Shown here: positions 1,249-54,407 of the stretch, piece by piece | How positions within the stretch are numbered: position 1 is the stretch's first letter | Layout of the letters: each line of letters opens with the position of its first letter | Source: Ascaphus truei | Taxonomy: Eukaryota; Chordata; Amphibia; Anura; Ascaphidae | Direction: 5' to 3' | DNA: 64,000 bases | NCBI GenBank assembly: GCA_036426205.1 | Contig: CM071573.1 | Location: forward strand, 78,297,219-78,361,218 | Notes under the pieces: model-generated | The model's input: only the letters and a program-made list of their open reading frames with translations | Databases searched by the model: none | Told to the model about the DNA's origin: nothing | Position numbers and translations under genes: made by a program

Positions 1249-3163
1249 GTAAGTGGTAACCAGGCAACACCCTGCACCCCTCCGGAGAGTAACAGGGGGG
1301 GGTGACCTCATCCTTTCCAACCTGCCCCCTTCACACACACAATACATAAATCCAGCTAGGAAAGTAATGAACACAACTCGTTGGCCTTAACCGACTGAGC
1401 CACTGATTGAGCCCCCTGTGCTGAAGCAGGGATATCCTGAAAACCTGACCTGTTGGTGGCCCTTGAGGACAGGAGTTGGCTGCCCTGACCAAAGCCAAGA
1501 CAAAATACAAGTGAAATAGTGAGTTGTTACATGGCGGAGTGATTTCACTTCTGTTGGGGCCGAGCCTTTTATAAACAACTTACCTTTTCCAAACGCTGCT
1601 TATGCAAAGGTTGAAATGGCCTTATTTAAAGTAGGTGAAAATCCGGGTAACAAAGGCACTGTAACAATGCAGTAACTTCCATTCAAGTCCATGCAGGCGC
1701 AGGACATTAGAATGTTACTCGGGCGCCATCTTGTGGAATAATGTATACATTCTGAGTAACGCCGCGCGCATAACACGCAGCAAAGTAACTGTGAGCGCGG
1801 GGAGTCCGCTGCATTATTACTGCTCATTATATCAGAAAATGGGTATAATGAGCTCTTCTGTTGTATTGAATCCATTTCTGCTCACGACATCTGGCGCAGT
1901 ATATATCTATATATATAGTCGCCGACACTACAGTCCAGGGAATTATAGTAATACAATAAATACATTAATTGCCACAAATTGCATAGGTACACAGTGTGAC
2001 GGCGGATAGGAACCATGCGGGCCCTTTATTCTGCCCATTTTCCCATCCGCTGTGATACATCTGACCATATGTAATTCTTGGCTTCCTTTTATACCTGGGA
2101 TCGCCTTAAAGAAGGAGCGTCTCAGTGAGTAACGCCACTGACTCTGGCACGGAGTGTGAAGCAGGGGAACCTGGTTCAATCCTTTGGGCAAGTCACTTAT
2201 CATAAATTGTAAGCTCTACGGGGCAGGGACTGTGTCTGCAAAATGTCTCTGTAAAGCGCCACGTAAAACTAGCAGCGCTATACAAGAACATGCTATTATT
2301 ATTAAAGCAGCAGTCCAAGCTGCCTATTTTATTGTATTTATTTTCCCCTTTAATATGTACATTAATAAAATCCACACACTGACAAGTGATTAACCAAGTT
2401 GCCGATCGTCAAAGATTTGGCTCGGGGGTTCACTAAATGACTGTCAGTGCAGCAGAAGAGGATCAAAGATGCAGAGTTCTGTGGGCAAGATCATGTTACC
2501 AGGCCGTCCCTAGATACAATTGGTGCACTGCTAGAGAGAGGACAGGGCTCCACAAGGGGTGTGCCAGTGCCTGTTTCAGAAGAGGAAGGGGTGTGACTTT
2601 GTAAATGGTTGCTATAGAAACAAAAAATGCTTGTTACATTATAGTACATTAAAACTTCAGAGTTGTTTAAAAAAAATGCCACAAGTATTTTCTCATAGTA
2701 CAGAACTGATTTACTTAAAAAAACACACATGTAGGATATTGCTTGGTCTGGACCAGCAATATCCTACATGTGTGTTTTTTTAAGTAAATCAGTGACTTTT
2801 TGCATAGCTAGAGGGGAAGGTGATGACGGGCACAGCTCATCTCTGTGTCTTCTCTCTGCCACCTCCACAGGGGGATTTGATCTGGAAGTCAAAGGCTGGG
2901 GTGGAGAGGATGTCCACTTGTACCGGAAGTACCTCCACGGGGAGATGATGGTGGTGCGCACGCCGGTGCCCGGACTCTTCCACCTGTGGCACGAGAAGCA
3001 CTGCGCGGACGAGCTCACCCCGGAACAGTACCGCATGTGCATCCAGTCCAAGGCCATGAACGAGGCCTCTCACCCTCACCTGGGCATGCTGGTCTTCCGG
3101 GAGGAGATCGAGGCCCATCTGCGCAAGCAAGCCTTCCGGACTAACAGTGAGCCGGAGGCCTGA
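1167..3163 (+). CDS. CSGALNACT2: Chondroitin sulfate N-acetylgalactosaminyltransferase 2, C-terminal two exons
   Basis: This is the 3' end of a gene whose other exons lie left of the window. The family is a type II Golgi membrane enzyme that adds GalNAc to the linkage tetrasaccharide or growing chain in chondroitin sulfate synthesis. Joined, exons 1167-1248 and 2871-3163 read through a G/GG split codon (phase 1) to give about 124 residues. Visible motifs are [20 protein letters not shown], then [14 protein letters not shown] (the acidic GGED segment of the beta-4-GalT-like fold), [11 protein letters not shown] and [20 protein letters not shown], ending in RTNSEPEA and TGA. The ending resembles CSGALNACT2 more than CSGALNACT1, and the RASGEF1A neighbour supports paralog 2. 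No frameshift is visible. The protein is on the plus strand and convergent with RASGEF1A. Confidence 0.93.
1389..1490 (+). mobile_element. Foldback hAT-like MITE, right half
   Basis: It carries the right arm of the family described at 34596-34784, reading CTGTGCTGAAGCAGGGATAT then GACCTGTTGGTGGCCCTTGA. The left arm is missing and no target duplication is recognisable. Confidence 0.75.
2105..2305 (+). mobile_element. tRNA-like SINE
   Basis: The head contains a box-B-like GGTTCAATCC. The body has GGGCAAGTCACTTATC, ATTGTAAGCTCTACGGGGCA and TGTAAAGCGC, and it ends in an ATTATTATTA tail. The same elements occur in reverse orientation at 22320-22610. A tRNA origin is inferred from the box-B-like motif. 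Confidence 0.7.
2705..2793. repeat. Near-perfect 89-bp hairpin
   Basis: The left arm starts ACTGATTTACTTAAAAAAAC and its reverse complement ends at 2793. The arms are 43-44 nt and match except for one extra T. The loop is about 2 nt. It is a palindromic MITE-like insertion or an assembly palindrome in the intron, close to the terminal exon's acceptor. Confidence 0.95.
2871..3163 (+). CDS. CSGALNACT2: CSGALNACT2 terminal coding exon
   Basis: The acceptor CACCTCCACAG precedes 2871. Two bases complete the split Gly codon, then the frame reads [20 protein letters not shown] through [20 protein letters not shown] to TGA at 3161-3163. Codon use is GC-rich, unlike the AT-richer intron. The exon also carries the 3' UTR. 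Confidence 0.95.
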
Positions 3164-8629: not shown

Positions 8630-9560
8630 AGTAACATCAAGTTCAACCTGTGTTAAATTTAGACAACAGAATGCAAACACAAAACCCCAGTGACAAATTA
8701 TCCAATGTCACATAACGGGGGGAAATAAATCCCTTTCTTCAATCAGATTACTTCCTGGATCAACACCCTTCCCATGTTTACTTATTTGGTATATCCCTGT
8801 ATACCTTTCCTTTCTAAAAAGATGCCCAACCTTATATGTTGTAGCTGCCATCACAGTCTCCATGGGTAATGAATCCCACATTGTAACTGCCCTTACTGTA
8901 AAGAACCCTTTCCTGTGTTGCTGGTGAAATCTCCTTTCCTCCAACCTTAAGGGATGACCCCGAGTCCTTTGTACTGCCCTTGGGATGAATAGTTCTTTTG
9001 AAAGCTCCTTGTACTGTCCCCGAATATATTTGGATATGGTTATCATATCCCCTCTTAGACGCCTCTTTTCTAATGTAAATAAATCTAATTTAGCTAGCCT
9101 CTCCTCATAAGTTAGATTGTCCATCCCCTTTATTAATTTGGTGGCTCTTCTCTGCACTTTCTCTAGTTCCATAATGTCTTTTCTAATGAGTGGTGCCCAA
9201 ACTGTACAGTGGGTCATCGCTTTCTGATGGATGTCTTATCCGAAGCCGCATAGTGCAATCCGGCGGTCAATTATCCGACGTCGGACCTGCTCATCCGACG
9301 GTCAGCGCCAGGGAGTAACATTGACCCGCAATCCGCCGGACACATTATCCGATGTCGGACCTGCTCATCCGACAGTCACCGCCGGGGAGTAACATTGACC
9401 CGCAATCCGCCGGACACATTATCCGACGGTGGCTGCGGGTTCACATTCCATTGGATAAGCGAGGACGCGCTGTGCTCCATATTCAAGGTGCGGTCTTACT
9501 AATGCTTTATAGAGTGGCATAATTACGCTGACTTCCCTTCCATCCATTCCCCGCTCAATG
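8630..9560 (-). mobile_element. CR1-type LINE, 3' fragment, interrupted
   Basis: On the minus strand the frame from about 9217 to 8710 reads the C-terminal end of a CR1-like ORF2 protein: [40 protein letters not shown] and [13 protein letters not shown]. Further upstream, VIMPLYKALVRPHLEYGAQ at about 9480-9540 is the preceding segment of the same protein. The two are separated by unrelated sequence at about 9225-9440. The 3' end, reverse complement of TTCAACCTGTGTTAAATTTA, is shared with the fragment at 39120. The element is 5' truncated and dead. Confidence 0.88.
9225..9440. repeat. Insertion with 74-bp tandem duplication inside the CR1 LINE
   Basis: TCGGACCTGCTCATCCGAC occurs at 9281 and again at 9355, each followed by AGTAACATTGACCCGCAATC. 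ATCCGACG/CGTCGGAT words give it a palindromic character. It splits the LINE reading frame, so it inserted later. Confidence 0.75.
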
Positions 9561-14019: not shown

Positions 14020-14044
14020 TCAGGCCCTGTTTAGTAGCGTTGAC
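14020..14044 (-). CDS. RASGEF1A: RASGEF1A coding exon 12 (last, 8 codons)
   Basis: The reverse-strand acceptor TTTTTTCACAG precedes 14044. The first G completes the Arg codon split by the phase-2 intron, then S T L L N R A and TGA (14022-14020). The human protein also ends in a TLLNRA-like tail, which supports this tiny coding part. Confidence 0.82.
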
Positions 14045-17000
14045 CTGTGAAAAAACACACAAACACAGATTTAATTGACACAAAGAGAAACGCAAACTGC
14101 ACTAATTACAGAATAGAACATTGAAATGACCCATTATAATTATGTGCTGGGCTGGTACTCTCCTTTCTCCTATAACTCTTCCCCTAATAATCATTCCCTA
14201 TAACCCCTCCCCTAACTGCTCCCTGTAACCCCTCCCCTAACTGCTCCCTAAAACCCCTCCCCTAACTGCTCCCTCTAACCCACTACCCTAAACTGCTTCC
14301 CTAACCCCTCCCCTAATGCTCCCTAAACCCCATCCCTAAATGCCCCCGTAAAACCCTCCCGAAACTGCTCGTAACCCTCCCTAACTGCTCCTAAAACCCC
14401 TCCCCTAACTGCTCCCCTAAACCCCTACCACCCTCCCCTAAAACCTCCCTAACTGTCCCTTAAACCCCTCCCCTAAATGACATTTAACCCCTCCCTAACT
14501 GCTCCCTGTAACCCCTCCCCAACTGCTCCCTAAAACCCCTCCCCTACTGCTCCCTGTAACCCCTCCTACGTAACCTCTCCCTGTAACCCTTTTCTAACAT
14601 GCCCCGTAACCCCTCTCCTAACTGCTCCCTGTAACCCCTTCCCTAACTGCTCCCTAAAACCCCTCCCCTAACTGCTCCCTAAAACCCCTCGACCAACTGC
14701 TCCCTGTAACCCCTCCCCTAACTGCTCACTAAAACCCCTCTCCTAACTGCACCCTGTAACCCCTCCCCTAACTGCTCCCTAAAACCCCTCTCCTAACTGC
14801 TCCCTGTAACCCCTTCCCTAACTGCTCCCTAAACCCACCTGCTCCGCCCCTCCCTAATACCCCTAAAACCACCTCGACCAACTGCCCCCTGTAACCCCTC
14901 CCTAACTGCTCACTAAAACCCCTCTCCTAACTGCACCCTGTAACCCCTCCCCTAACTGCTCCCTAAAACCCCTCTCCTAACTGCTCCCTGTAACCCCTCC
15001 CCTAACGCTCCCTAAAACCCCTCTCCCAACTGCTCCCTAGAACTCCTTTCCTAACAGCTCCTATAATGGATCTTATAACCATCCCCCTGATTCACCCCCA
15101 AAGTTCTCTAACCACCTATTTTAGCGCATCCCCGTACTGCTCCTATACGCACTCTCTAAAACGTCTCTCTTGCTACTCCTATAACTGCCCCTATATTTCC
15201 TACTTTTTACTCCTTCCCTATACCTACTGCATATAACCCCTCCCCTAACTGCTTTAATAACTGCTCCCTATAACCCCTCCCCTAACTGCTCCCTATAACC
15301 CCTCCCCTAACTGCTCCCTATAACCCCTCCCCTAACTGCTCCTATAACCGCACTGCTCACTGTCCTACCTTTGCTCTGCTTGTGTCAAACGACCTTGACA
15401 CAATTTTAAATTGGTGCACTTACTACTAATTTCTGCTCCTTTGTGAGTCTTGCTACAAATCTCCCGAAACTCATCAGTCCCCATAGTTATGCCAGTTATT
15501 GATAGGCAGATGAGCGGAGCACGTGTTCCTTGTTACCCCATCCTCTGCGTGCGTGTCGTGTCTCTGGTGCCTTCATAGAATGCAGTATATTAACCCAGGC
15601 TGTGCGCAAAAGGTGACACTGTGTGCTCATTTGCATGTCATTTCCCAGAATCCCTGGCTGCAGACCTGTCTGAGACATGTGAATGTGCTCACACGTGATA
15701 TTTTTATTTGCTGTAAGTGGAGGAGTTACATCACTTTTTTTCCCACCGCGACTTCTATAATGTACGGTTATAGTGACAGGGACGTTATTGTACCTGAGCG
15801 TTTTCCAGCTGTCCTTCTCCATGTGATTGTCTGGACCTTCATTTTCAAAGGAAGCCAGAAAAAGAGCTAAAAAAAACCAAGGAAGCAAAAGACACGGCTC
15901 TTAGTCCCCTGACACATAGGTCCACGCCTCCACCCAGTTACATACCCAATATGTAGATGCACCCTACCAGGGGAGGGGGAGGAGAGGAGGGGAATCATCC
16001 ATTGGTAACCAAGCAGCACCAAGGCCAAAGGAAGCCACCCCACTTACCTTCTTCAGTGTATATGGGCGTAGTGAGAAGGTAGGTCTGAATCTTCTTATCC
16101 TTCTCGAATGGACATTCCACCTGCTTCCATGTCAGGAAATCATGGATCTGCCTGGAGACCTCCCAACATTTCTGCCGAGGGGGGAACAATAAGTAAAATA
16201 AAGTGAGACCTTGTAAAGCTGGCAGAACACGGACGGAAAAAGCCAGCCAACCCGTCCCATAAACACTGCCAAGAACCAGAGGGCTTGGCTATGAAAGAAT
16301 ACGTACAGTGGGCCATTTACTACCATTCTGCAGTGTATTGTAGGCCAGAGGTGATCAACTCCAGTTCCAGGGCCCCCAACAGGTCAGGTTTTTAGGATAT
16401 CCCTGCTTCAGCACAGGTGGCTCAATCAGTGGCTCAGGCTTCGATTGACCCACCTGTGCTGAAGCAGGGGTATCCTAAAAACCTGACCTGTTGGTGGCCC
16501 TTGAGGACTGGAGTTGCCCACCCCTGTTGTCGACATTCTGTAAACAGAGGGCTAACACTGTGCACGCTAGTTACTGTTTCCAGCGATGTGATATTACAGT
16601 AGTTATATTAAACTCCAGCCACACATTACGGTAGAGCAGCACTCCAGGGGGCAGACATGTTTTTTAATAGGTTTGAAGCAAGGGGTCTCTGGCGCTGAAC
16701 CGCATTGATTTTAGCTCCGGGGACCCCCGCTCTAAGATACTTAACTCCATACATGCTGCTGGTATCTGTGCAGTGTAAAGCTCCCAGTCACGTGGGCCAA
16801 TAGGAAGGCAAGGGATGACATCACGGCTTCCTATTGGCCCGCCGGACATGGGACTTTTAAACCGCCATATTGTCAACCCAGCCAGGGCTCCCACCGGCAG
16901 CCGCTATAGAGGTAAGTATCTTGGGACGCAGGTGGGGTCCCCGGTGCCGAAACCAACACGGTTCTGCACCGGAGAACCCCTGCTTCAAACCCATTAAAAA

Positions 17001-20000
17001 AAAAAAAAAAGTGCCTCTTTAAATAAACCAATCTTTAACATCTCAATGATTCTGCGCAGTCACACGTCTTTAGCCAAGATCAGCTCTAAGGCCTCGGCCA
17101 TGTTTATTGCTGGCGTGCGGAGGCGTGCTGAGGCTGAGGGAAAGCGGGGGCTTTCCCTGGCCTTAAACAGCGCGCCATCCGGGGGCGTGTCGGCGGGCAG
17201 GCCAGTGACGTCACGGAGCTGGTTCGCCCTCATTGGGCGAACCGCTCACGAGACCGGCCCTGCGCTCCGGCAAGCGCGAAGATTTAAAATTTCCCTAAGA
17301 CCTGCGCTTCCGCGCGCTTGCGTAAGCGTAGGCGAGCCCCTACTAAAGCTGCTCTCATTGCGGCTGTAGGGGCTCAGTGCCGAGCGGAAGCGCGCATTAG
17401 CGCGCCTCCATCCACAAGCACTATTCATGGACGCGGCCTAATGGAGAAGATATTTGGAACCTAACACTGTATAACTCGCTCTGGCATTAATAGGGCAGAA
17501 TGCGGACAAACAACCAATGAGAAGGGGGCGAGTGGTTACCTTGAAGTTGATGTGTCCGTTGGGTAAGCGGTTGGAGTGGATTTTGTGCAGGAAGAATAGA
17601 TCTTTGATAAATAAGTTGAAAACTGGGATGACTATTTTCTCCCGGCAGCTGTTGGCGCTCTGGGACCGCTGTGCTGCCCCCTGCAGGGCTGTGCGATAAT
17701 TACAGAAGTTGCTGGATGGATCCATGTGGTGCTGTTAACAAGAGGAAGCAAGAGCTATTTCAACAGCTGAACACATATATATATACATATATATATCGCC
17801 ATCCAGGTACATAGCTCTTCACAGCACTATTACACATGACATAATAATGAAACACATCATGGGAATAAGCGTTTCAGACATAAAAGTAACATAAGGAAAA
17901 GGAGTCCCTGCCCCGAAGAGCTTACAATCCAAGTGGTAAGTAGGCAGAACTTCCAGAGACATTAGGGGGTTGCTATGGTCCGTGCATATGAGAAGTATAG
18001 TATCAGCCAGCAGAGCTACCCATATGCTGCATTAAAGAGGTGGGTCTTAAAGTTGGCAAGAGGTTGCCAGACGGGTATTGAGGGGAAGGGCATTCCAGAG
18101 GTGTGGGGCAGTCAGTGAGAAAGGGTTAAGGCGGGAGAGGGCTTTGGATACAAAAGGGGGTAAACAGAAGGCATCCGTGAGCAGAATGCAAGAGTCGGAC
18201 AGGTGTATAGCGAGAAATTGGGACTGAGATGAAAGGAGGGGCAGAGGAGGGTATTTGCCTTAAGAGAGGAGAATTTTGTAAGAAATACAGAATTTAATCA
18301 GAAGCCAGGAAAGGGATATCAGCAGGAGACACGCCGAGACATTTTTAGGAGAGAGCAAAGTGATTCTAGCTGCACTGTTTAGGATATATTGTAGGGGGAC
18401 AGGTGAGAGGCAGGAAGGACAGACAGTAGAAAGTTACAATAGTTGAGAAGGGAGAGAATGAGGGCCTGCGTTAGAGTTTTAGCAGCAGAACAACAGAGGA
18501 AAGGGTGTATCTGTGCAATGTTACCCATGAAAAAATGACAGATTTTAGCTACTGTACATTGTGAGTATGAGAGGAGAATGTGAGGGAAAAGTCAAATGTG
18601 ACCCCTAGGCAGCGTGCTTGTGATACTGGATGTATGATAGTGCTGCCAACAGTAATATAGATGGGGCAGTAGGGCCAGGTTTGGGAGGGAGTACTGTAAG
18701 AGGCGCTCCGTCTTTGATATGTTAAGTTTGTCTGCGGAGGGCCACCCAGGACGATATCGCAGAGAGACATTCAGACTTTGGTTTGTACAGCAGGTGTAAG
18801 GTCAGGGGTTGAAAAGTAAACTTGTGTCTCATCAGCATAGAGGTGATATTTGAATTCAAGAGAAGTGATAAAATCACCTATAGAGTATGTACTGTAAAGA
18901 GAAAAGAGAAAAAGGAGGTCCCAGGACAGACCCCTGGGGTACGTCCACAGAGAAACATCAACAGAGGAGGAGGTGCTGGCAAAGGAGACACTGGAAGTAC
19001 GATGGGAGAGGTAAGAGGAGATCCTGGATACAGCTCTGTCACGGATACCAAGAGTATGGAGAAGGAGAAGAGGGTGGTCCCCGGTATCACAGGCTGCAGA
19101 GAGGGCGCGTAATGTAACAAAAAGGGAGAGTAACAATTCCCCTCTGCTTGGAACACGGTCATGGGTCACACACGGTTCTATTGTTACACGTATACCAGCT
19201 ATACAGTAAGAGGCTCAGCAAATAGGTATTATGATATTGACACAAAGCAAATACATTTCCCGTACAATCCCTGCAAATGTCCGTGTTTTCAGTCCAAAGA
19301 AGGAAAAAAGCTGTATGGTGCTCAAACAAAGATCAGTAGCTTATATAAGCATATACTGAATACACTGAATATTCACTGTGCAAATCCTTTGAGTATCACA
19401 TATAAATGTATAGACCTGCGGTCAAATAATGACTACACCACTATCCACCGTTAATCGAATAGCTGGATGGAGTTCCACTTCTGGAATAGTAAAAACTCCC
19501 AGTGGCTAGTGTCCAGACATATAAGCATAGATGTGGACAAATAAGAGGGTGTACAAGAGTAATATAACTCACATCGGTATGGTCTTCTGTGTGATATTCC
19601 TCCACAGGTGTGTGCTTCCGTTATCCCACGAAATCCAAGCAGGCAGGCAAAGGAAAGTGGTGCTCCAACTTCCCTCTGCCTGCCTGCGTGTTTTCAGTCC
19701 AACGTTGGCATAAAGCTGGAACAATCCCAGTACACTCCTCATTTGACTCCTTCAGCGCCGAAGGGACCCGCAACATACTATATACCAGGGGTGGCTAACT
19801 CCTGTTCTCAAGGGCCACCAACAGGTCAGGTTTTCAGGATATCCCTGCTTCAGCACAGGTGGTGCAGTGAATGACTGAGCCACTGATTGAGCCACCTGTG
19901 CTGAAGCAAGGATATCCTGAAAGCCTGACCTGTTGGTGGCCCTTGAGGACTGGAGTTGGCCATCCCATGTATATACGAATTGCTGGTAACCTTCAGTTTT

Positions 20001-23000
20001 TAAAGGACCTTAATAAATATATCTGAATGGAGCTTAAGTCTCCAACAAGGCAAGCAGCACGACGGTGTATTAAATAGGGGTTTTAGGGGCGTTAATACCA
20101 AACAGTGCAATACCACCTTTCTGACTCTAGATGGGGCTGTAGCCCAGTTTTGGAGCAGTTGCCTGTCTGTGATTGATAGATCACAGTCTCCTAACAAGCC
20201 CCAGAGCCAATGCTGACAGGAGACAGGAAGATCCCTGTTGTACACCCCTGGCCCTCACACTGCAGGGGGAGACAGTATATAACAGGGAGATGAGGGTCAG
20301 TGTTAGGGTAAAGGCCATACAGTTAAACCTACCTTTCCTCCCTTTCATGGGTCCCTGCATCCTCCCTTTCATGGGTTTAAATCCCTTTAATACCAGAGGG
20401 CCACACAGGGAATTGTTCTGATGCTTTAATTACTCTGCAAGCATATATATACACGAGTACAGATGTATGCATTGCTCTGCACATCTGTACACAAAGCTAT
20501 AGCCCCCCTCCCCTCCCCCCTCCGATCTGTTGATTGGGACTCCAGCCATATCACGCCTTTTATAAATGTGCAGCTTACCTCCAAAACATCAAACTTTGCC
20601 GTTTTCACCTTGGACCAGGTCTTTTTTAACCTGGCCACAGGACTAAGGTTCATCCCAGCTAAAAAGAACATGTAAAAAGCGTATTAGAAACCAAGATTTA
20701 ACAACAAAAAGTCACAGCTACACAGATGTCACTATAATATAGAAAAGGCTCACTGCAGGCAATAACCGGTACACCCATCACACATTACACATTACACAGT
20801 GCGGACACCGGATAATGTGCATTATAACGCTGAATTACAGCCCGAAGCTTCTTAGTAAGACTTCCCTTGCTTACTCCTGCAAAGTTATCAAAATATATAC
20901 AGAGCAGGGAGCAGCACGGAGAGCTCCGCTCAACAGCAAGTACAGTGACCTGCCAAGGGCTGGCAGGAGCAGCACAAATCTCCCCTTCACATGCACATAC
21001 TGATATACAGAACAGGTGCGACCCAGGAAGCAACGATCCACCCCCCCCCCCCCCCCTCCCTACACAAACCCCCCCCCCCCCCCCCCCCTGCATACCCCCA
21101 ATATCTCCCAATGCATGCGCAATGTGCAGGAGCACACACACACTGCCTGCCATTGCAGTGTAGCTTTCCTACGAGCGACAGACCCTTCTGGTATTGAAAG
21201 GGTCTGGCACTTCTACACTTAGTTATACGGTTACAAACGCAGGACAAAGAACTCGGTAGTGGGGTAAACTTCTGGTGATATCAGCTCTTCAGGAGATATA
21301 TCAACTAGTGGTTACACAACATCTGAGTGCCTTATTGCACACACCAGGGCAGATTATGCTGCTGCCTCTGGTTACTCATTTAAATCATTGCAGACCCCCC
21401 CCCCCCGATAACTGACGGTGCTTACAGATAATGGCCATCATGGAGTTGAAGTTGCCGATGTTGAAGCATTCTCTGGCCACGTCTATGAAGAATTCCATCA
21501 CCCGGGTCCGCTGCTTCTTCTTCACCACCTGCCAGGCGCCGAGAACAAGAGCAGCGCGTTACGCGAGCAGGGGCATACTGTACGCGTGGGATAGACACGC
21601 GCGACTTTCCTTACGAGACGTCCAACAATGCAACTGTATATGCGAGCCGTGCAAGTGTGTAAAGTCCCTTTGTCGATCTGTGTCACATGTGCCAAAAAAA
21701 GAGAGTGCAAGCTCTTTGGGATAGGGTGTCATGGTTGCTGTGCTGTTCTCCCTCGCTCTTTCTATCCACACCCACACCCACACTTACTGAAGAATAGCAC
21801 AGTGCTTCACTTGACTTTCCCCCTCAGATATGAAAAGGCCAGCGCCGGGTGAGAAAGTGTTTGCTCGGGGCGAGCACTGTGAGAAAGGCCACAGTGTAAT
21901 ATGTATTGATATTCCCTCTATCTGTGGAATTATACGTGTAACTGGTCAGCCTGACCCCCTTCTGAAATAACACCCCGGCAATGTGGGAGCTGTATACAGC
22001 TTCTGTGCTGCTGAAAAGCAGAGCACGTCTCAGGGAGAAAACACCACTCCCGATATTCATTTCCTTTATCTGCACTGCGCTTCAAGAACGACACCATCTC
22101 GGGTGTGAAATGGCAACTGTAACGTGTTACATACCACTGCATATATTGTTACTCACTTCTAATTCAAACCTGCTTCAGCTGATGTGGACAAGAGCTTACA
22201 TACAACATAAACCTAGGTGTACTTAATAATACGAAACCTCAGTGGATCTTAAGACTGGGACTTAAATCACTCCCCATTTAGTAAGCCTGGCCCTTTGTAT
22301 TTAGAATCATAATAACTTTATTTCACATAGTGGTGGATGCATAGAACATTATCCCAGCAGAGGAGGTGGCAAGTGTAGTGAAGTAGTTTATATAGCACTT
22401 TCCTCCAAATGGCACTCAAAGCGCTTCACAATTACAACTGCAGCGCTGTACATACATTTTACAGGTGCTGTCCCTGCCCCATGGAGCTTACAATCTATTT
22501 TTTGGTGCTTGAGGCACAGGGAGATAAAGTGACTCTCCGAAGATCACAAGGAGCTGACACCGGGAATTGAACTAGGTTCCCCTGCCTCACACACCGTGTC
22601 CTTGTTATCAGTCAGTGTCTTTACTCACTGAGCCTCACCTGCCTCACACACCGTGTCCTTGTTATCAGTCAGTGTCTTTACTCACTGAGCCTCCCCTGCC
22701 TCACACACAGTGTCCTTGTTATCAGTCAGTGTCTTTACTCACTGAGCCTCACCTGCCTTACACACATGTCCTTGTTATCAGTCAGTGTCTTTACTCACTG
22801 AGCCTCCCCTGCCTCACACACCGTGTCCTTGTTATCAGTCAGTGTCTTTACTCACTGAGCCTCCCCTGCCTCACACACAGTGTCCTTGTTATCGGTCAGT
22901 GTCTTTACTCACTGAGCCTCCCCTGCCTCACACGTGTCCTTGTTATCAGTCAGTGTCTTTACTCACTGAGCCTCCCCTGCCTCACACACGTGTCCTTGTT

Positions 23001-26000
23001 ATCAGTCAGTGTCTTTACTCACTGAGCTGCTCCCGCAGATACATAAACCAGACTTTGTCCAGCTGCCTTTTCTAAGAATGCAATTAAACTGGCTTAAATT
23101 CCTAAAACTCGTCAGCGCCCTGCGATTCCAGCACTGAAGGGTTTCATTTCTTGCAGTAATATTACAACCTAATTATCGCGCACGGACCGAACGCCAGAAG
23201 TTCTCACTCAATGTTGTCATTTTTATCTCGGGCCATAATGTGCAAAAAAAGGAAACATAACAAATATGGTTGGAAATATAAAAGTGTGCTGGCCAGTGTG
23301 GTGGCAGAAAGGTGATCCCGTGCAGCGCTTGCAAGACGTACCCTGCAGATCTCTGCAGCAACTTGCATGCTGAGGCAGTTAAACCAGTTGTCATAGGCTT
23401 CTAGGTTAAAGGTCTTTGTGACATCACTTCGGCACTGAAAGAAAGGAGAGAAGGTATCAGAGCAGAGAACGTGTAGTACAATATCCCAGGCCTGCTACTG
23501 TACGTGTGCATGGGCACCGGCAGGGGGCCGAGGGGATCCACGGCCTACTAATGTACGTGGTGAATGGGCACGGAACAGGGGCGACGGAGGGATCCCAGGC
23601 TCTTGTACGTGAATGTGCGGCACAGGCAGGGGGCCGAGGGGTTCCCAGGCCGGCACTGGACCGTGGTGCAGTGGCACCACCGGCAGGGGAGGCGTAGGGG
23701 GATCCAGGCCTGCTACTGTTCGGTGTGCGAGTGGGCACCGGCCAGGGGCCGAGGGTATTCCAGGCTGCTTACGTACCGTGTGCATGGACCGGCAGGGGAA
23801 CGAGGGGGATTCCCAGGGCCTGATATGTACGTGTGCATGGCCCGGCAGGGGGCGAGGGATTGTTTTTCCAAGGCCCTGACTAATCGAGTGGCATGGGCAC
23901 GGCAGGGGGCGAGGGGATCCAGGCCTGCTACTTGCACGTTGTGATGTGCACCGGCAGGGTGGCCGAGGGCGAGATTCCAAGGCCTGTACGTAGTGTGCAT
24001 GGGCACGACCAGGGGGCCGAGGGGATTCCCAGGCCTGCTCTGTAAGTGTGCATGGGCACAGCGAGGGGGCCAGGGGAACCAGACTGCTACTGTACGTGTG
24101 CAATGGGCACCGGCAGGGGGCCAGAGGGGTTCCCAGGCCTGCAATGTAGTGTGCAGAGGACCCGCAGGGCCCCCTCTAGTGGCAAAAAACAGGCAGGGGG
24201 GCCGAGGGGATTCCAGGCTGTACTACGTGCCAGAGGACCGGCAGGGGCGAGGGGATTCCCGGCTCTACTGTACGGTGTGCATGGGCAGCAGGCAGGGCCG
24301 AGGGATCCACAAGAAGGGAAAACGTGCGGGAGGGGGGAAATGGATATTACCATCCTCTTCTAATCTGACAGTTAACAATGGCCTAATCGGAGGGCCCGGG
24401 CCACAAACAGTCGGTTTCCAGTATATCCCGCTTACCGAGCTGGGCAGTCAGATTGATTGAGCCATGTGCTAGTAGGGACATCCCTGGAAACCTGACCTGT
24501 TGGTGGCCAGTTAATAATGGGTTGGAAGGCCTAATGTAACCAAGCAATGAGTATCGAGATTGTTGATGACAAAAAAACCCCAAATTACAAATAGGTTAGA
24601 CGGATTTTATTTGGAGGAGTAAATAAAGGGGTATTGCAAAAAGCTACTGCGATGACAGAAATCAGTGGTTGGATAGAAAGGATCCAGCAGAGGAGGGTGG
24701 CAAGGTAGTGAGTAGCTTATAAGCACTTACACTTGGCTCAATTTAAACCTAATAGCTATGGAATAGAGAATAAAAAGACGGAGTCAGGAATATGCGATCA
24801 CCTTATGTAGGAAGCTGGACAGACCTCGTGCGTGCCCTATGTCGAGCAGACTATAGAGATTACTATGTTAGGGTGGAGAAGCAGAACAGAACAAGACATA
24901 TTGGTGCAGAATCCGTAGGGTGCATACTTCGTGGTTATCCAATGATCAATGGGACTGATACTGCATATGATCCTGGAAGCTTCACCAGTCGTTCCTACAA
25001 GGACAAGCAATAATGGCAAAACGGTAATGTATGCGACAGAACAAGCACATAGTCACGGGCGGCCAAGGGCAAAGTTAAGGTACTCGCAAGTCCATGAAAA
25101 ATAGGGAGTATAGGTATTTTACGGGGGTGTGTGATGATGTGAGATTGTTATCAAGTTAGCAGCCTATTTGGTCTGGAGAAATACAGATGAATGTAGGTTG
25201 TGATACTTAGTAGAGGACCAGCAAGCAGGACCATACATGAAGTTATAGGCTTCGAGCTTTTGAGACTTCATGGTATAGTTTTCCATGTGTCACTTGACAC
25301 CACGTTCAGTGGGCTGATCGAGTTAAGGGGGAGGCGCCTTTAGGACCCCCAACAAAATTAATAGGGCTGCCACTGTAACATTACATGTAACCTTTCGTTA
25401 TTTTGTCGACATCATTAATTTTTGTGACCTGTCTCAAAGACATTTTGACGATAAAATGGATGTGTAAAATGCCCTTACATAGTTTGTCAACAAAATGAAT
25501 TTTAATTAGGATTTGTGAACAAAATGTGATCCATTACAAATGGCCACAGCATAATAGGAAAACCAAACTCTGATGAGCCAACGTCTCACCGTCGATGGCG
25601 GTGAGCTGCTGCACCAGGATCAGTGGGTCTCCGCAACGCTCAGGATGTCCTTCTGGGAGGACTGCGGGTTGGTCTTCAGAATGTCCCTTTGTCGGTGACG
25701 GCTGCCGGAATCTTCTCTCGGTCTCCTGGAACTGGCGACCAGCGTGGAGAGGGCGAGAAGCAGTTCTGAGTCATCGACTGATGCTCTTCGTGAGCGGTAC
25801 GTTCTCGGAGAGATGCCGGAGAAGAGAAGAAAAAGCAGGCTACGAAAATGACCTAGGCTCGCCCACCGCTGTGCAAAATGCAGAGAAGCAGATTAACCTT
25901 TCCAGGCCAAGAAAAGAGAAACACAGCATGAAAATGGAAAGGAGGAGAGAAAAATGCATACCCTTAACTAATTGAATTCATGTGTTGACTGAACATCAGT

Positions 26001-29000
26001 GACCAGTGAGTACAATTCTAGCCTCTTGCAGCTCTGATTAGGATGCTAAAGTACCAAAAATAATTTCCTTTCTTTAACTTGTTGTGAATAGGGAGACTGG
26101 TCCCAAATACTAGAGCAGGAGGCGGCAACTCCAGTCCTCAGGGCCACCCGCAGGTCAGGATATCCCTGCTCACACAGGTGGGGAAGTCTTTGACTGAGCC
26201 TTTGATTGAGCCACCTGCTGAAGCAGGGATATCCTGTTATCCTGACCTGTTGGTGGCCCTTGAGAGAATGGAGTGGCCACCCCTGCACTAGAGAGGAGAT
26301 GAGTGGAGTACCACGGTTTGTTTTGTTTTCTTTTATGAAGGAAAAGAGCACTTCTATTACAAGACTTTCACCTTACTGGTTTTAGAGGATACACCATGTA
26401 TACAGTTTCTAAAAGGTTATAAAGACCCAATGCTGCAGGCTTACAATGTTGTGAAGCAAGCAGAGCCACTGATGGCAAATGATAGATTGCCATTAACAGG
26501 GTTTGTTCCTCTGCTGGTGCAGTATCAGGGGCAGATGTGCAGTGATGGAGACACGAGACAGTACAGTTCCGTTTGTGTCCGCCCTGGAACAGATACAAAA
26601 GCTCCTTTTTACACGCTCCTGTGTAAAGCAGCAGAGAACAGGCTGATCACTGACACTGCATGGAACTAATGGTGAAATGATCTGACTTCCGGCATTCAAA
26701 GCGGCCCGTGGCTCGGTTACCTAATGATCCAAGCAGCTGCACATGCCCGTCTCGCCTCCATTTTACTTTTAACCCACAAAAAATATAAAAAGCTACTGGA
26801 TTAACCCATCACTACCAGAGGAGCCTGCAGTGACAACGAACAGAGGAGCTGCAGTGTACAGCGCACGAGGAGAGCCTGCAGCGTACAGCGCACAGAGGAC
26901 CTGCAGCGTACAGCGCACAGAGGAGCCTGCAGGTACAGCGCACAGAGGAGCCTGCATGTACAGCGCACAGAGAGCCTGCAGTGTACAGCGCACAGAGGAA
27001 GCCGCGCAGCGTGTACAATGCGCCACAAAGGCGAGCCTGCATGTACAGCACAGAGGAGCCTGCAGGTTTCAGCGCACAGAGAGCCGCGAGGTACAGCGCA
27101 CACAGGAGGCCTGCCGTGTACAGCGCACAGAGGAGCCTGCAGTGTGACAGCGCACAGAGGACTGCAGGTACAGCGCACAGAGGAGCACTGCAGTGTAGCG
27201 GCAGAGGAGCCTGCAGCGTACAGCGCACAGAGGAGCTTTGCAGTACATGCACAGAGGAGCCTGCAGTGACAGTGACAGAGGAGCTGCAGTGTACAGTGCA
27301 CGGGAGCTGCAGTGTACAATGCGACAGAGGAGCCTGCGTTGTGCACAAGCAGCCAGAGGCAGGAGCCGCAGGTTTACAGCGCACAGAGGAGCTGCAGTGT
27401 ACCGTCACACAGTAGGAGAACCTGCAGTGTACAGCGCACAGGGAGCCTGCAGTGGACAATGCACAGCAGGAGCCTGCAGTGTACAGCGCACAGAGGAGCC
27501 TGCAGTGTACAATGCACAGAGGAGCTGCAGGTACAAGCGCACAGAGGAGCCTGCAGTGTACAATGCAAGAGGAGCCTGCAGTGTACAGCGCACAGGAGCC
27601 TGCAGTGACATAGAGGAACTGCAGGTACAGCGCACAGAGGGAGGCAGTGACAGCGCACAGGACGCTGTACAGCGCACAGAGGAAGCCTGCAGGACAGGAC
27701 AGATGATGCCACAGAGGAGTGCAGTGTACAGCGCACAGAGGAGCCTGCAGTGTACAGCGCACAGAGGAGCCTGCAGCGTACAGCGCACAGAGGAGCCTGC
27801 AGTGTACAGCGCACAGAGGAGCCTGCAGTGTACAGCGCACAGAGGAGCCTGCAGTGTACAGCGCACAGAGGAGCCATACAAAGGAGTACATGAAGGAAGG
27901 ACAGGGCGTGTGAGATAGGATTCCAAGTTCCTGGGGTCTATGTATCAAGGGAATGTCAAAGAACAACTGGCACAGAGGGAGGAATTTCCATCCGAGTCTC
28001 GTAGCCGCCACCATCCCATCAGCGTTCTCTGCTGCTATTACGCACAGTGTGCGTCAGCTTTTAAGGAGGAGAGACATATTACCACGAGTTGTGTCTAATG
28101 GTGACATCTATGTGCTTTGACTTGAGTGAAACTAATGTGTCAGGTCTGAGGTGATGTGAGCTGCATGGCTAACGATCTGTGTCAAATGTAAGAAAATCAA
28201 TTAACAATCTCTCCAAGTTTGACCCAGTCACAAGCAGAAAACGAAGCAAGCATGTCCGCCTCCCATCAGAGCAGGGAGGGATGGAGGGATAAAGGGCCAG
28301 GTTCTTATGAAACAGGTGAGGATAGCACGGGCGGCAGTGACAGGTCCTCTCACCTCGTCACACTGGCTGATCCTCTGTGCAATCTCTTTCAGCTCTTTCC
28401 TGGCTCGCTCATCCTGGAAGTCAAAGGGGAACGTTTCCGTCCATTCCTTCAGCAGCTGGATGATCTTGGCAGCGAAGGACTTGAGTTTGGCCTGGGAAGG
28501 AGGGAGGGGTAGAGACAGAGATTAGTGGATGTACCACTGAAGCCACTGGAAGTATTGTGTCACAATGTTTCATGTGTTGAGAGAAATGGACTGTTCCAAC
28601 CCAATAACGTAGCACCATCTGCAGCCGTGGGGGATCTTTCTGCCACTTAATACATAGAACATTACGCTATCATTGCTGCGGTCAGAGTGTGATGGTTCTG
28701 GGTACGGCGGGTGACCAGGTTCTTATTTTCACACCCAGAGTACCACTACTTTTTCCTTCCTTTTTTTAATTACACATTTACAGTCGTACTTTTTGGTTAA
28801 AGAAAAAATAATCTATTTGATAAAACCGCTCTCCAGTCCAAGTTTTTACAGCATCACTGTTATCTCTTATCTCTGTTTGTTCTAAATTACAGCCCGAGTT
28901 GAGTTTTTCCTCCTTGCTGAATAGATGTGTTTACACCAGTCACCGCACAGCTGGCTGTATTAAAGCCACTTCATCTGTATGTTACTACAGATCTTTCTTT

Positions 29001-32000: not shown

Positions 32001-34443
32001 CTTGGTGGCCCAATAAAAAGTATCATACCCCAACTCTCTCTTTTGTAGGCGTATAAATAACCTCATGGTTCTCCCAATGAACCCACCTTAAGGGCTGACC
32101 CCGATTGACTGCTTGAGCCCCCCTTACCTTGTCCGCCTCTGTGCCAGATTCCAGCTGCTGCTTCTGCTTGATGCAGATCTGCCCCACCTTGGCGAGGATC
32201 TCGTGCGGGTGGATGAAGACACGGGAACTCAGCAAGAAGGTGAAGATATAGGTTCTCTGAGACACAGAAGGACATGTTTGAACATAGGGAACAACGTCTA
32301 CCTTCCAGTCCTATGACATTTGATACATCGCCTCCTAATCTTTAGCAGCTTTCTTCACCGGCACAGGGGGAAACATAGCATTGTGAAATAATTGGCAAGG
32401 GGTTAATGCCTGTCACCTGCCGAACTAATTCTGCAAAACAAGCAAATTGCAAGTTTGGGACCCGATTTGCAGCCCACAGGAGCAAAGCACTGTAGTGGTG
32501 AAATGATTTGTAAATGGTCCCTTCAGTTTACACACAACAACATTGTACCCACACTCCCCATTTTGTGGGGGAAACTGTCTGACTTTGTACGTTACAGATA
32601 TTTACCCAGTTTGCAGATTTCCCTAGATTTGATGCAGGTTGTGACACCTTTCAGTGGGCCAAATGTAACCTCTTTGCCAGCAATGTGATACAGGCCCCTC
32701 TGGCAGTGAAGGGGTTAAATGTGTGCCACACCTGTAATTACCCCTGGGGGCCAGTTATGCTTAACGGGTGGAATGACTGCCCTGTTGAAATGAGCGGATT
32801 CTGCCTGGGTTTGTCTTGGCTCCCCTCTGCACCCCCTCTGCCCTGCGTGTTTGCTTCGTCCTGTTTGCTTTACAATGCTTTTTCCCACAGTCCGTGTTAG
32901 AAGAGCTGGCTCTGCTCCCTCCCTAGTGATTTTAATGGGGTTTTCTGAGACAGAGCAAGAATAGAGATTCTATGCTGAAAATGGGCGGCGTTTTCAGTCT
33001 GAATTTGGGAGCATGTTCTTTATTTCATTACTTATCTGTTTCATTGCAGTACTACAGCTGAACTTTATGGGGGGGGGGGATTTATATGGAGCAAAAGAAG
33101 GTGTTAGGACTGGAGCTAATTCATACACAATATAATGGGGTGCCTTCATTTTTGCATGGCACGTCTTCATTTTGCTCCATTGTGTGTGGTATAGTCAATA
33201 CAAAGCAGAGCAACACATTGTTGGCCTTTCTGGCAGGAAAGGGGTTAAGAAACAATAACCGACATGCGAAGTCCTTGTACTGATACACAAAGGCCAATGG
33301 GACTCCATATGTGGAAAGGGCTGCACTCTTTAGCATGGTTTCCTAGCAACATCATCCATCATACAGACAAAAAGGAGAAATGAGACAAACTGGAAGTAGG
33401 ATGTTCTAGTGCGGAGCAGGAATGTGCTCATGTCTGGAAGCACAGCGGCTTCTCTGACCTCTTACACCCATGGGGTATTTGGAGAAAGGGATCAGAGAAA
33501 GCACATTCCGTTCCTGCAGCAGGCAGGGGGTAAACAGGGACCCATTGGAAAAGAGAGAGCTGGCCATGGGTATGCTACAATATGCTACAATATGGGGGGC
33601 TGATAAGTGAAGGATCCATTCTGCTGAGTCAGGACATGAAGCCATATTCAATGTGTGGTCCCCACCATCATGACTTAAAATCAACACGTTGCCTTCTATT
33701 TTAATCCCTTCATTGCCTCTGACAGTTTACATGCAGCAACATAAAGCTATGCTGAGTATGATCAAACATGGCCAGTCATCCAGAGCTTGGAGAGTGGAAA
33801 CCAAATAAGAGATTTGGTTGGAGATTTTCCAATAATGAACAATTACAGATGGTGCCGCCCACTGTGTGCCAACCAGTGCCCCCTAACTCCTCCACACTAC
33901 AATAACTGGCAGCACCCTTTGCTAGTAGGATGGGCTCTCCTGTTGGGTATTGCTGGGAGACAGAGGGCAATGGCAGTTCAATGCACCAGCTCAACGTGAG
34001 AGATATTAAAATACCCCATATTGCCATGTTATATTACAGTAGGGGATGGAGCTCTAGGGGCACTTGTTCATTTACACAATGATGACACGATGAGCTTATT
34101 TTAGCTTACTCTGGAAGATATACTACTAATGCTGAAACGGCAAAACTTGCCCAATTTGGCAATGCCGTTCTTGCAGTGTCACCATAAATGGCTGGCACAT
34201 TGCGCCATCTACTTCAGCAAGAGGAATGATTAAAGAACAGGAATGGCAAATATCCAACACTCTACTTACATCTGGATAATAATCCACTGTGGGCACGAGA
34301 CGCTCAATCAAGGCTTCCAGGGACCCCGACACCAGGCTGCCATCTTGGTACACAGGATCTCCGCACTGCTCCCCCATTTCTGGCTGCACCTGGCCGCTAC
34401 AGGTGGAGCCGAGCATGCTGGGAAATATAGGTGTCTGTGGCAT
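14020..34443 (-). CDS. RASGEF1A: RasGEF domain family member 1A (12 coding exons)
   Basis: The family catalyses GDP-GTP exchange on Ras-family GTPases (RasGEF1 proteins are best known for Rap2) in the cytoplasm. Exons on the minus strand are 34443-34270, 32256-32128, 28491-28354, about 25806-25590, about 24994-24928, 23434-23342, 21528-21426, 20658-20579, 17731-17540, 16171-16048, 15866-15794 and 14044-14020. They add to about 480 codons, close to the 481 of human RASGEF1A. The N-terminal half holds the RasGEF N-terminal module (SLEALIERLVPTVDYYPD to QCDE); the catalytic CDC25-like domain follows, with YDNWFNCLSM, EFFIDVARECFNIGNFNSMM, GMNLSPVARLKKTW and IVIPVFNLFIKDL. All intact exons have GT-AG borders and compatible phases. 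Exons 4 and 5 carry indels that look like sequence error. An alternative start in a 5' exon near 46.58 kb would stay in frame. It faces CSGALNACT2 tail to tail, as in human. Confidence 0.93.
14160..15360. repeat. C-rich minisatellite, ~25-26-bp unit, in RASGEF1A last intron
   Basis: Units like CCCCTCCCCTAACTGCTCCC repeat about 45 times, alternating TGTAA and TAAAA between them. The middle part has many single-base gains and losses, while 15240-15345 is regular. On the transcribed RNA this would be G-rich, with many GGGG runs. Confidence 0.93.
15600..15725. repeat. CTGCAGCCAGGGATTCTGGG family, inverted copy
   Basis: It reads GTGTGCTCATTTGCATGTCA then CCAGAATCCCTGGCTGCAG and ends TGTGAATGTGCTCACACGTG. 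It lies in RASGEF1A intron 12 (14045-15793, counted after coding exon 11). Confidence 0.75.
15794..15866 (-). CDS. RASGEF1A: RASGEF1A coding exon 11
   Basis: Reverse-strand acceptor TTTTTTTAG before 15866 and donor GTACAA after 15794. The reading is ALFLASFENEGPDN, then HMEKDSWKTL and a split Arg codon (phase 2). This is the conserved C-terminal tail of the family. Confidence 0.92.
16048..16171 (-). CDS. RASGEF1A: RASGEF1A coding exon 10
   Basis: The acceptor CCTCGGCAG precedes KCWEVSRQIHDFLTWKQVEC; then PFEKDKKIQTYLLTTPIYTE follows. The donor is GTAAGT after a phase-1 G at 16048. It is the end of the catalytic domain and is highly conserved. Confidence 0.96.
16346..16526. mobile_element. 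Foldback hAT-like MITE
   Basis: Ends CAGAGGTGATCAACTCCAG and GGAGTTGCCCACCCCTG, with long complementary arms. Flanks TTGTAGGC and TTGTCGAC match at 6 of 8 positions. It lies in a RASGEF1A intron. Confidence 0.86.
16661..17000. mobile_element. MITE with long terminal inverted repeats (second family)
   Basis: The left end AGGTTTGAAGCAAGGGGTCT pairs with the right end GAACCCCTGCTTCAAACCC. The interior has a second palindrome around TTCCTATTGGCC. A truncated relative occurs at about 6145-6240. The superfamily is not certain. Confidence 0.75.
17086..17441. mobile_element. GC-rich MITE with TAAGGCC ends
   Basis: It starts near TAAGGCCTCGGCCATG and ends at CATGGACGCGGCCTAA, imperfect inverted repeats. 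It is CpG-rich with nested inverted repeats (GGTTCGCCCTCATTGGGCGA). It resembles the element at 49052-49456 in its ends and composition. Confidence 0.68.
17540..17731 (-). CDS. RASGEF1A: RASGEF1A coding exon 9
   Basis: 192 nt, phase 0 at both ends. The acceptor GTTAACAG precedes HHMDPSSNFCNYRTALQGAA; REKIVIPVFNLFIKDLFFLH and NRLPNGHINFK follow, then donor GTAACC. It is catalytic core of the RasGEF domain. Confidence 0.97.
17900..19170 (-). mobile_element. L2-like LINE fragment, antisense
   Basis: Minus-strand translation shows reverse transcriptase pieces: LLLLHTLGIRDRAVSRISSY, LSHRTSSVSFAS, then SLEFKYHLYADETQVYFST (the YADD-type catalytic region, with E for D) and, downstream, LGVTFDFSLTFSSHTHNVQ. 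Frame changes around the VPQGSVLGPLLF position show it is dead. The 3' tail at about 17905 is the reverse complement of TTGTAAGCTCTTCGGGGCAG. Confidence 0.88.
19786..19969. mobile_element. Foldback hAT-like MITE
   Basis: Begins CAGGGGTGGCTAACTCC and ends GGAGTTGGCCATCCCATG. Seven-base flanks TATATAC are repeated on both sides. It is in the intron between RASGEF1A coding exons 8 and 9. Confidence 0.88.
20579..20658 (-). CDS. RASGEF1A: RASGEF1A coding exon 8
   Basis: The acceptor TTCTTTTTAG precedes 20658. Two bases finish a Ser codon, then GMNLSPVARLKKTWSKVKTA and KFDVLE lead into donor GTAAGC (phase 0). It is a conserved helical-hairpin part of the CDC25-like domain. Confidence 0.97.
21038..21090. 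repeat. Poly-C tracts
   Basis: Two C runs of about 17-20 bases are separated by TCCCTACACAAA. Lengths of such runs are unreliable in assemblies. Proline or glycine runs in overlapping frames are artefacts. Confidence 0.95.
21426..21528 (-). CDS. RASGEF1A: RASGEF1A coding exon 7
   Basis: The acceptor CGCCTGGCAG precedes VVKKKQRTRVMEFFIDVARE; CFNIGNFNSMMAII follows, then a phase-1 T and donor GTAAGC. The segment is a signature stretch of RasGEF catalytic domains. Confidence 0.97.
22320..22612 (-). mobile_element. tRNA-like SINE, antisense
   Basis: Reverse complement of the 2105-2305 family: GCCCCATGGAGCTTACAATC, AAAGTGACTCTCCG and GGAATTGAACTAGGTTCCCC (box-B-like). Its head end runs directly into the tandem array at 22563-23030. 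Confidence 0.75.
22563..23030. repeat. 57-bp minisatellite, about 8 copies
   Basis: Unit: GTGTCCTTGTTATCAGTCAG, TGTCTTTACTCACTGAGC, then CTCCCCTGCCTCACACAC. Because 57 is divisible by three, a Ser-Leu-Leu-Thr-Glu-Pro frame stays open across it; this is not a gene. The first unit is the head of the SINE at 22320-22612, so the array appears to have grown from that SINE. Confidence 0.95.
23342..23434 (-). CDS. RASGEF1A: RASGEF1A coding exon 6
   Basis: The acceptor CCTTTCTTTCAG precedes CRSDVTKTFNLEAYDNWFNC; LSMQVAAEICR follows and the donor is GTACGT. 31 codons, phase 0 at both borders, with no damage. Confidence 0.96.
23460..24315. repeat. G-rich ~54-bp minisatellite, error-rich
   Basis: Unit: GTACGTGTGCATGGGCACCG, GCAGGGGGCCGAGGGGATTC and CCAGGCCTGCTACT, about 16 copies. 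Nearly every copy has different one-base losses or gains, most in homopolymers. The long Cys/Pro/Gly-rich open frames across it are artefacts. Confidence 0.92.
24380..24520. mobile_element. Foldback MITE, badly corrupted copy
   Basis: Pieces such as AAACCTGACCTGTTGGTGGC, CAGTATATCCCGCTTACCGA and GATTGAGCCATGTGCTAGTA are recognisable, but indels interrupt them. The damage matches that of the neighbouring exons and arrays. Confidence 0.65.
24630..24760 (-). mobile_element. SINE fragment, corrupted copy
   Basis: The CAGCAGAGGAGGGTGGCAAG and GTAGTGAGTAGCTTATAAGC words correspond to 22345-22400 of the SINE at 22320, with several single-base indels. Confidence 0.5.
24928..24994 (-). CDS. RASGEF1A: RASGEF1A coding exon 5, corrupted
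   Basis: A reverse-strand acceptor-like TTGTAG is followed by a sequence alignable, with several indels, to the exon that in the family reads LDRVSSIYPEDLMQIVSHMD and ends NHK or NHR. Here one frame gives SRIICSISPIDHWITTK. About 67 nt remain where some 81 are expected, and a GTATGC-like donor follows. Its position between exons 4 and 6 supports the call. I infer sequence error rather than mutation. Confidence 0.62.
25010..25570. other. RASGEF1A: RASGEF1A intron 5, low-quality sequence
   Basis: AT-rich sequence with no recognisable gene or repeat. It lies inside the error-rich tract, so weak similarities may be masked. Confidence 0.4.
25590..25806 (-). CDS. RASGEF1A: RASGEF1A coding exon 4, frameshifted by indels
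   Basis: The minus-strand sequence from GAGAACG (25806) to the donor GTGAGA contains the expected segment in three different frames: MTQN-like then LLLALSTL near 25740-25770, ILKTNPQSSQKDIL near 25650-25685, and PLILVQQLTAID near 25592-25625. At least three small indels separate them, and the acceptor AG is also lost. The length (217 nt) is close to the roughly 220 expected. Exons outside this tract are intact, so error is the likely cause. Confidence 0.85.
25870..26800. other. RASGEF1A: RASGEF1A intron 4, right part
   Basis: Contains the foldback MITE at 26116-26285 and otherwise unique-looking sequence up to the minisatellite at 26820. No further exon was found. Confidence 0.5.
26116..26285. 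mobile_element. Foldback hAT-like MITE
   Basis: Ends CAGGAGGCGGCAACTCC and GGAGTGGCCACCCCTG; flanks TACTAGAG (26108-26115) and CACTAGAG (26286-26293) match at 7 of 8. A few short deletions in the arms are present. Confidence 0.88.
26812..27873. repeat. 26-bp minisatellite, about 40 copies
   Basis: The unit begins GTGTACAGCGCACAGAGGAG and ends CCTGCA. From about 27720 to 27873 six copies are essentially perfect; left of that almost every copy has small deletions or insertions. Since the period is not a multiple of three, all frames stay partly open, giving a spurious 400-codon minus-strand frame. It lies in RASGEF1A intron 4. Confidence 0.96.
27880..28350. other. RASGEF1A: RASGEF1A intron 4, left of exon 3 donor
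   Basis: Unique-looking sequence with no repeat or exon recognised up to the donor of coding exon 3. Confidence 0.45.
28354..28491 (-). CDS. RASGEF1A: RASGEF1A coding exon 3
   Basis: The acceptor CCTTCCCAG precedes AKLKSFAAKIIQLLKEWTET; FPFDFQDERARKELKEIAQR and ISQCDE follow, then donor GTGAGA. 46 codons, phase 0. It is part of the RasGEF N-terminal module. Confidence 0.96.
28520..30830. other. RASGEF1A: RASGEF1A intron 3, mostly unique sequence
   Basis: AT-rich intron with two GGGTTAA-motif relatives (near 29410 and 29768) and no exon or recognisable transposon. Small open frames lack support. Confidence 0.5.
30835..30990 (+). mobile_element. L2/SINE-type 3' tail
   Basis: GATTGTAAGCTCTTCGGGGC, TTCCCTGTACTG, GTGAAGCGCTGAGTACAC and GGCGCTATATAAATAAA followed by ACAATACAATAC form a complete tail typical of these elements. 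The upstream body is lost. Confidence 0.75.
31700..31810. repeat. CTGCAGCCAGGGATTCTGGG family, copy
   Basis: Contains CACTTGTGAGCACATTCACG, GCATACAGTGCTTCCACTGC and CAGCCAGGGATTCTGGGTAA, matching 55640-55760 over about 110 bp. Confidence 0.8.
31882..32029. repeat. 148-bp imperfect foldback near RASGEF1A exon 2 donor
   Basis: GGTATGATACTTGTTATTGG pairs with CCCAATAAAAAGTATCATAC, and CAAGCTTTCCAACCTCT pairs with AGAGGTTGGAAAGCTTG. The words resemble Penelope-like element ends, but the palindromic form is unusual. It ends 99 bp from the donor of coding exon 2. Confidence 0.85.
32128..32256 (-). CDS. RASGEF1A: RASGEF1A coding exon 2
   Basis: The acceptor TGTGTCTCAG precedes RTYIFTFLLSSRVFIHPHEI; LAKVGQICIKQKQQLESGTE and ADK follow, then donor GTAAGG. 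43 codons, phase 0. It is the core of the RasGEF N-terminal motif. Confidence 0.97.
32300..34260. other. RASGEF1A: RASGEF1A intron 2
   Basis: Contains strong copies of the GGCAGTGAAGGGGTTAA motif near 32695-32718 and 33222-33247 and an inverted relative near 33702. No exon is recognised. Confidence 0.5.
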
Positions 34444-54179: not shown

Positions 54180-54407
54180 CAGGGGTGCTCAACTCCAGTC
54201 CTTAAGCCCCCCCCCCAACAGGTCAGGTTTTCAGGATATCCCAGCTTAAGCACAGATGGCTTAATCAGTGGCTCAGTGAAAGATTGAGCCACTGATTGAG
54301 CCACCTGTGCTGAAGCAGGGACTGATTAAGCCAATTGTGCTGAAGCCGTGTCATCCTGAATACTTGACCTATTAGGGGGTCATGAGGACAGGAGTTGAGC
54401 ACCCCTG
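54180..54407. mobile_element. Foldback hAT-like MITE
   Basis: Ends CAGGGGTGCTCAACTCCAG and GGAGTTGAGCACCCCTG; a perfect 8-bp duplication CCTTAGGC (54172-54179, 54408-54415). The centre has an extra partial arm copy. Confidence 0.95.

Follow-up and report, generated by a model that had tools for sequence, protein, structure and literature searches.

RASGEF1A lies on the minus strand of a 64,000-nucleotide stretch of Ascaphus truei DNA (the window, in whose positions all coordinates below are given), and two of its exons, 4 and 5, are broken in the assembled sequence. Has this frog lost part of a conserved gene, or is the sequence wrong at this place? The initial annotation had favored the second answer and attributed the damage to a local assembly error. 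We compared the exons, the dispersed repeats and the tandem arrays inside and outside the damaged stretch.

Intact and broken exons of RASGEF1A

Ten coding exons were placed by translation and all of them are intact. The two remaining exons were located by frameshift-tolerant alignment (exon 4) and frameshift-tolerant search (exon 5).

34270..34443, minus strand: RASGEF1A coding exon 1, intact by translation and splice donor (54/58 identical to Engystomops, zero frame changes)
32128..32256, minus strand: coding exon 2, intact by translation, splice sites and frameshift-tolerant alignment
28354..28491, minus strand: coding exon 3, intact, the nearest clean exon at higher coordinates than the bad tract
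25591-25806 (approximate), minus strand: exon 4, frame broken several times
24927..24997, minus strand: broken remnant of exon 5, with about 70 bases left of an expected 78
23342..23434, minus strand: coding exon 6, intact, the nearest clean exon at lower coordinates than the bad tract
21426..21528, minus strand: coding exon 7, intact (34/34 identical to Engystomops in an ungapped comparison)
20579..20658, minus strand: coding exon 8, intact by translation, splice sites and frameshift-tolerant alignment
17540..17731, minus strand: coding exon 9, intact by the same three measures
16048..16171, minus strand: coding exon 10, intact by the same three measures
15794..15866, minus strand: coding exon 11, intact by the same three measures
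14020..14044, minus strand: coding exon 12 with the stop codon, intact by translation and splice sites

When joined, the ten intact exons form a single open frame of 1131 nt, with GT at nine of nine donors and AG at nine of nine adjoining acceptors. The earlier statement that ten exons survive with perfect splice sites is thereby confirmed. The joined product carries RasGEF_N and RasGEF domains according to Pfam (PF00617, E = 4e-42; PF00618, E = 2.8e-15). Its best relatives are vertebrate RASGEF1A proteins, and the top match labelled 1A scored 801 bits versus 572 bits for the top match labelled 1B (both statements among the matches listed, 120 of 764). An open reading frame at 2735-3160 (plus strand) resembles the C-terminal part of CSGALNACT2, a gene that neighbors RASGEF1A in human.

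The ten-exon protein aligns to that of Engystomops without a gap, with identity at 354 of 376 residues, and we therefore conclude that the gene is not decaying. The agreement is gap-free on both sides of the damaged stretch (139/147 residues upstream, 215/229 downstream), and the 99 residues that lie between the two flanking parts in Engystomops correspond to exons 4 and 5.

Exon 4 was aligned at 18 settings (six orthologues, each at three penalties) and showed 7 to 11 frame changes at 17 of them and 3 at the remaining one. At the start of the exon as aligned, there is no AG at the orthologous acceptor position. The same alignment gave no frame change in eight of the intact exons, a control in which exon 7 was compared ungapped only and exon 12, with its 8 codons, entered neither comparison.

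Exon 5 is harder to recognize. A search of the three minus frames revealed none of the words IYPEDL, YPEDLM, SHMDSL, DNHK and DNHR. The frameshift-tolerant search over 23440-25600 placed a remnant that outscored 60 of 60 shuffles in each of six settings, with a margin of a single point in the weakest setting (36 versus a shuffle maximum of 35). The number of frame changes in this remnant is uncertain: nine were counted with all six orthologues at the mild penalty, and stiffer penalties gave fewer, accompanied by residue gaps. Damage to both exons and, in the alignment, absence of the acceptor AG, as proposed from the first reading of the sequence, are thus borne out.

Indels in dispersed repeats and tandem arrays

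A nearly palindromic foldback family is spread over the whole window, with a consensus of 183 bp and at least 14 copies (e.g. 19783-19971); its ends resemble hAT-type termini. We aligned 14 copies to a consensus built from five of the twelve copies outside the damaged stretch and counted gaps of one or two bases only, excluding a small fragment at 54353-54407. The repeat copies inside the stretch are:

24375..24535, plus strand: foldback copy, 8 short indels in 108 aligned bases (7.4 per 100)
26116..26285, plus strand: foldback copy, 10 short indels in 166 aligned bases (6.0 per 100)
24665..24728, plus strand: SINE-like scrap, indel-rich compared to the copy at 22333-22400

The twelve outside copies carry 0 to 3.4 short indels per 100 bases, the maximum being the copy at 40.5 kb. 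Pooled, the two tract copies have 18 short indels in 274 bases compared to 15 in 1822 bases for the outside copies (binomial P of about 2e-8), and the seven outside copies that did not contribute to the consensus have 7 in 928 bases. Mismatches are level, at 9.1% in the tract and 8.6% outside (P = 0.42). A copy that is merely older would be expected to be richer in both indels and mismatches; since only the indels are raised, the pattern fits sequencing error and fits neither age nor pseudogene decay. Of longer gaps, the two tract copies have 3 and 1 and the other copies 0 to 3.

When the masked window was aligned to itself, 21 tract-outside pairs showed 3.67 short gaps per 100 columns and 154 outside pairs 0.94; foldback self-overlaps were dropped, and the pairs are not independent, as 20 of the 21 involve the element at 26.1 kb. 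Over 69 columns, the SINE-like scrap differs from the sole copy of that part, at 22.3 kb, by 6 gap openings and 5 mismatches, and four other matches, to a different part of the element, show 0 or 1 gap openings. Both observations of the initial annotation on these repeats, an indel-rich foldback element unlike its outside copies and an indel-rich SINE scrap, were reproduced. Two open reading frames, at 8711-9235 (minus strand) and 63132-63509 (plus strand), resemble tails of non-LTR retrotransposon reverse transcriptases.

The tandem arrays are less clear-cut. The two arrays of the damaged stretch and the indel-rich arrays elsewhere in the window are:

23485..24310, plus strand: 54-bp tandem array, 13.7 indels per 100 bases
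26816..27875, plus strand: 26-bp tandem array, indel-rich to about 27711-27735 by per-copy variant counts
349-1120: GTAT array, 5.1 indels per 100
14195-15061: array, 5.8 indels per 100
15232-15349: array, 11.9 indels per 100 (13 of 14 deletions in its first 100 bases)
55.5 kb: AC array, 6.3 indels per 100
57.4 kb: AC array, 6.5 indels per 100
63526-64000: array, 4.2 indels per 100

The 54-bp array also has 7.1 mismatches per 100 bases, a figure for which there is no outside copy for comparison. It had been described as indel-rich and its counterparts as clean; the first part stands and the second does not, as only seven of the 13 other arrays in the window are nearly free of indels (0-1.1 per 100), including the 57-bp array that adjoins the tract at 22.6 kb, and six reach 4.2-11.9 per 100. 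Consequently, either the argument from arrays carries little weight or the window holds further poor stretches, and array indels by themselves would not single out the tract at 23.5-27.7 kb. The array at 14195-15061 is possibly another poorly assembled stretch. It is a 25/50-bp array in which the copies at about 14298-14620 and at 14826 are more variant than their neighbors.

In the 26-bp array, with 8.9 indels per 100 bases overall, the last five copies hold one variant in all, and a Poisson change point falls after copy 36 of 41 (log-likelihood gain of 13). The first copy of the 54-bp array has 3 variants, compared to 5 to 21 in the other fifteen, and the best change point of that array lies after copy 12 and not after copy 1. 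Variants in the two tract arrays are linked more than the mean of simulations with independent errors, with variance ratios of 1.31 (reached by 2 of 40 simulations) and 1.54 (0 of 40), although these simulations produced too few insertions and too many mismatches; permutation gave P = 0.024 and P = 0.014. The linkage is lower than in two indel-rich arrays elsewhere (ratios of 3.0 and 6.1). This excess suggests that the variation in the two arrays is in part genuine or that the error rate is uneven. Deletions outnumber insertions without concentration in homopolymers, a pattern that, as we understand these platforms, is a clean match for neither raw CLR nor nanopore error, and for this reason we name no sequencing platform for the tract.

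Together, the repeat and array indel measures delimit the following feature:

23489..27735, no strand: low-quality tract, approximate, with a poorly resolved left edge and a right edge inside the 26-bp array

This extent rests on the measured features, and composition did not separate the unique sequence between them. On the low side, exon 6 is clean to 23434, and the change-point test places no edge at the first 54-bp copy. The tract was initially drawn at 23470..25900; its end at 25900 falls short, since the element at 26116-26285 and the 26-bp array to about 27.7 kb are also affected. In CpG ratio and in homopolymer runs and counts, the tract did not stand out against 41 bins of 1250 bases, of which one (25001-26250) itself lies inside the tract.

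Probable origin of the indel-rich tract

Judging from the sequence, we consider it highly probable that about 4.2 kb (roughly 23.5-27.7 kb) represent low-accuracy sequence in a scaffold that is largely accurate elsewhere. Neutral dispersed repeats and exons both show raised indels, and foldback mismatches are not raised, which makes local sequence error the best explanation. In exons and dispersed repeats, the excess was observed inside the tract and not outside it, apart from the single foldback copy at 3.4 per 100, so that it tracks position and not gene. The assembly error proposed at the outset thus gains support from exon and foldback indels that share one stretch at level foldback mismatches, and the real RASGEF1A gene of A. 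truei is very probably intact.

Read as local sequence error, the tract is an artefact of a kind already known. The VGP paper (PMC8081667) names short indels as the commonest error before polishing and describes, also in the legend of its Extended Data Fig. 11, how TLK1 acquired frameshift errors at a locus left unpolished in the Anna's hummingbird assembly. As at the TLK1 locus, short indels confined to one long-read stretch break a vertebrate gene here while the remainder is accurate. For TLK1, the paper states the cause, namely reads drawn to the alternate haplotype, whereas for the A. truei tract we infer it. A further difference is that tandem arrays frame the A. truei tract.

Gap filling offers a second parallel. 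With PBJelly and TGS-GapCloser, accuracy is described as depending on read quality, PBJelly requires enough coverage, and well-corrected fills are accurate (99.97%), according to PMC7476103. Such fills resemble the tract in placing long-read sequence between accurate flanks (PMC7476103), and similar tools may have been used for the A. truei assembly. PBJelly was applied to two other frog genomes (as mentioned in PMC10794172). A literature search found no paper describing how this A. truei assembly was made; an A. truei HiFi run (SRR30223073) is named in PMC12401588.

We propose that the 54-bp and 26-bp minisatellites may have halted accurate contigs or polishing reads. The gap between them would then have been spanned, probably by gap filling, with long-read sequence that was raw or had thin coverage, and polishing would have failed in the tract as accurate reads could not be placed there.

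A serious alternative cause within the artefact reading is that the tract belongs to a poorer haplotype or a false duplicate that was left unpolished since accurate reads mapped to the other copy. The VGP paper describes such a case for TLK1 (PMC8081667), and raised foldback indels at unraised mismatches agree with it. On its own, however, it does not account for the position of the tract between two minisatellites or for its end within one of them, and we consider this cause rather unlikely, with the reservation that it too is an artefact reading, differing in cause, and that its probability therefore overlaps with that of the preferred explanation.

Far less probable is that in A. truei RASGEF1A has truly become a pseudogene or is in the course of losing exons 4 and 5. 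The two frame-broken exons and the acceptor AG that is missing as aligned are what this reading would account for, but the other ten exons remain open over their full joined length with all their splice sites, and gene decay does not explain why neutral repeats in the tract share the same type of indel. Pseudogene decay across the whole coding sequence was rejected, as eight exons have no frame change and exon 7 matches at 34 of 34 residues ungapped.

Least credible is real germline indel instability, in which the minisatellites would promote indels in flanking DNA at an extreme local rate, with substitutions at a normal rate, and two RASGEF1A exons would have been broken in this way: two arrays do frame the tract, their variants are slightly linked and six other arrays in the window are indel-rich too, but this would need many indels within a few kilobases with foldback substitutions unraised and a conserved gene disrupted, and seven of the 13 other arrays, including the one at 22.6 kb beside the tract, are nearly indel-free.

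Under the preferred reading of a local sequence error, such tracts can be recognized from a single raw sequence by comparing how often indels and mismatches occur in the copies of dispersed repeats. The biological interest of the tract is low, and its one practical consequence is a public protein record that is most probably wrong.

The deposited A. truei RASGEF1A protein

The best protein match of the joined exons is the A. truei protein FKM82_015332 (P0001, 432 aa). Letter for letter, it equals the translation, from the window, of exons 1 to 3, a segment at 25564..25731 and exons 6 to 12:

25564..25731, minus strand: false exon of FKM82_015332, exact translation match to the deposited protein

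An AG within exon 4 precedes the false exon, and a GT of the next intron follows it. By frameshift-tolerant alignment, about 21 of the 56 residues of the false exon (FQE, RQP and CGDPLILVQQLTAID) are in the orthologous frame; its final nine residues are read from the intron and the rest are in the wrong frame. Only about 21 of the 73 residues of exon 4 are therefore kept in frame in the record. Exon 5, which sits at the start of the RasGEF domain, is absent, and the Pfam RasGEF match covers profile positions 14-181 with 144.4 bits in the A. truei record, compared to positions 2-180 with 160.8 bits in Engystomops.

The initial annotation had anticipated that automated annotation would go wrong at this place, and in FKM82_015332, with its false exon 4 and missing exon 5, this has already happened. 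The annotation pipeline would have spliced round the damage, using the AG inside exon 4 and the GT in the next intron and skipping exon 5. We conclude that the public A. truei RASGEF1A record is most probably wrong owing to poor assembly sequence; exon loss, domain loss or fast evolution of RASGEF1A inferred from this frog record would be misleading.

Two other RASGEF1A models lack exons from the same part of the gene. The Pseudophryne corroboree model (P0008), labelled low quality, is without exons 4 and 5 and part of exon 6, and the Colinus virginianus model (P0006) is without exon 4.
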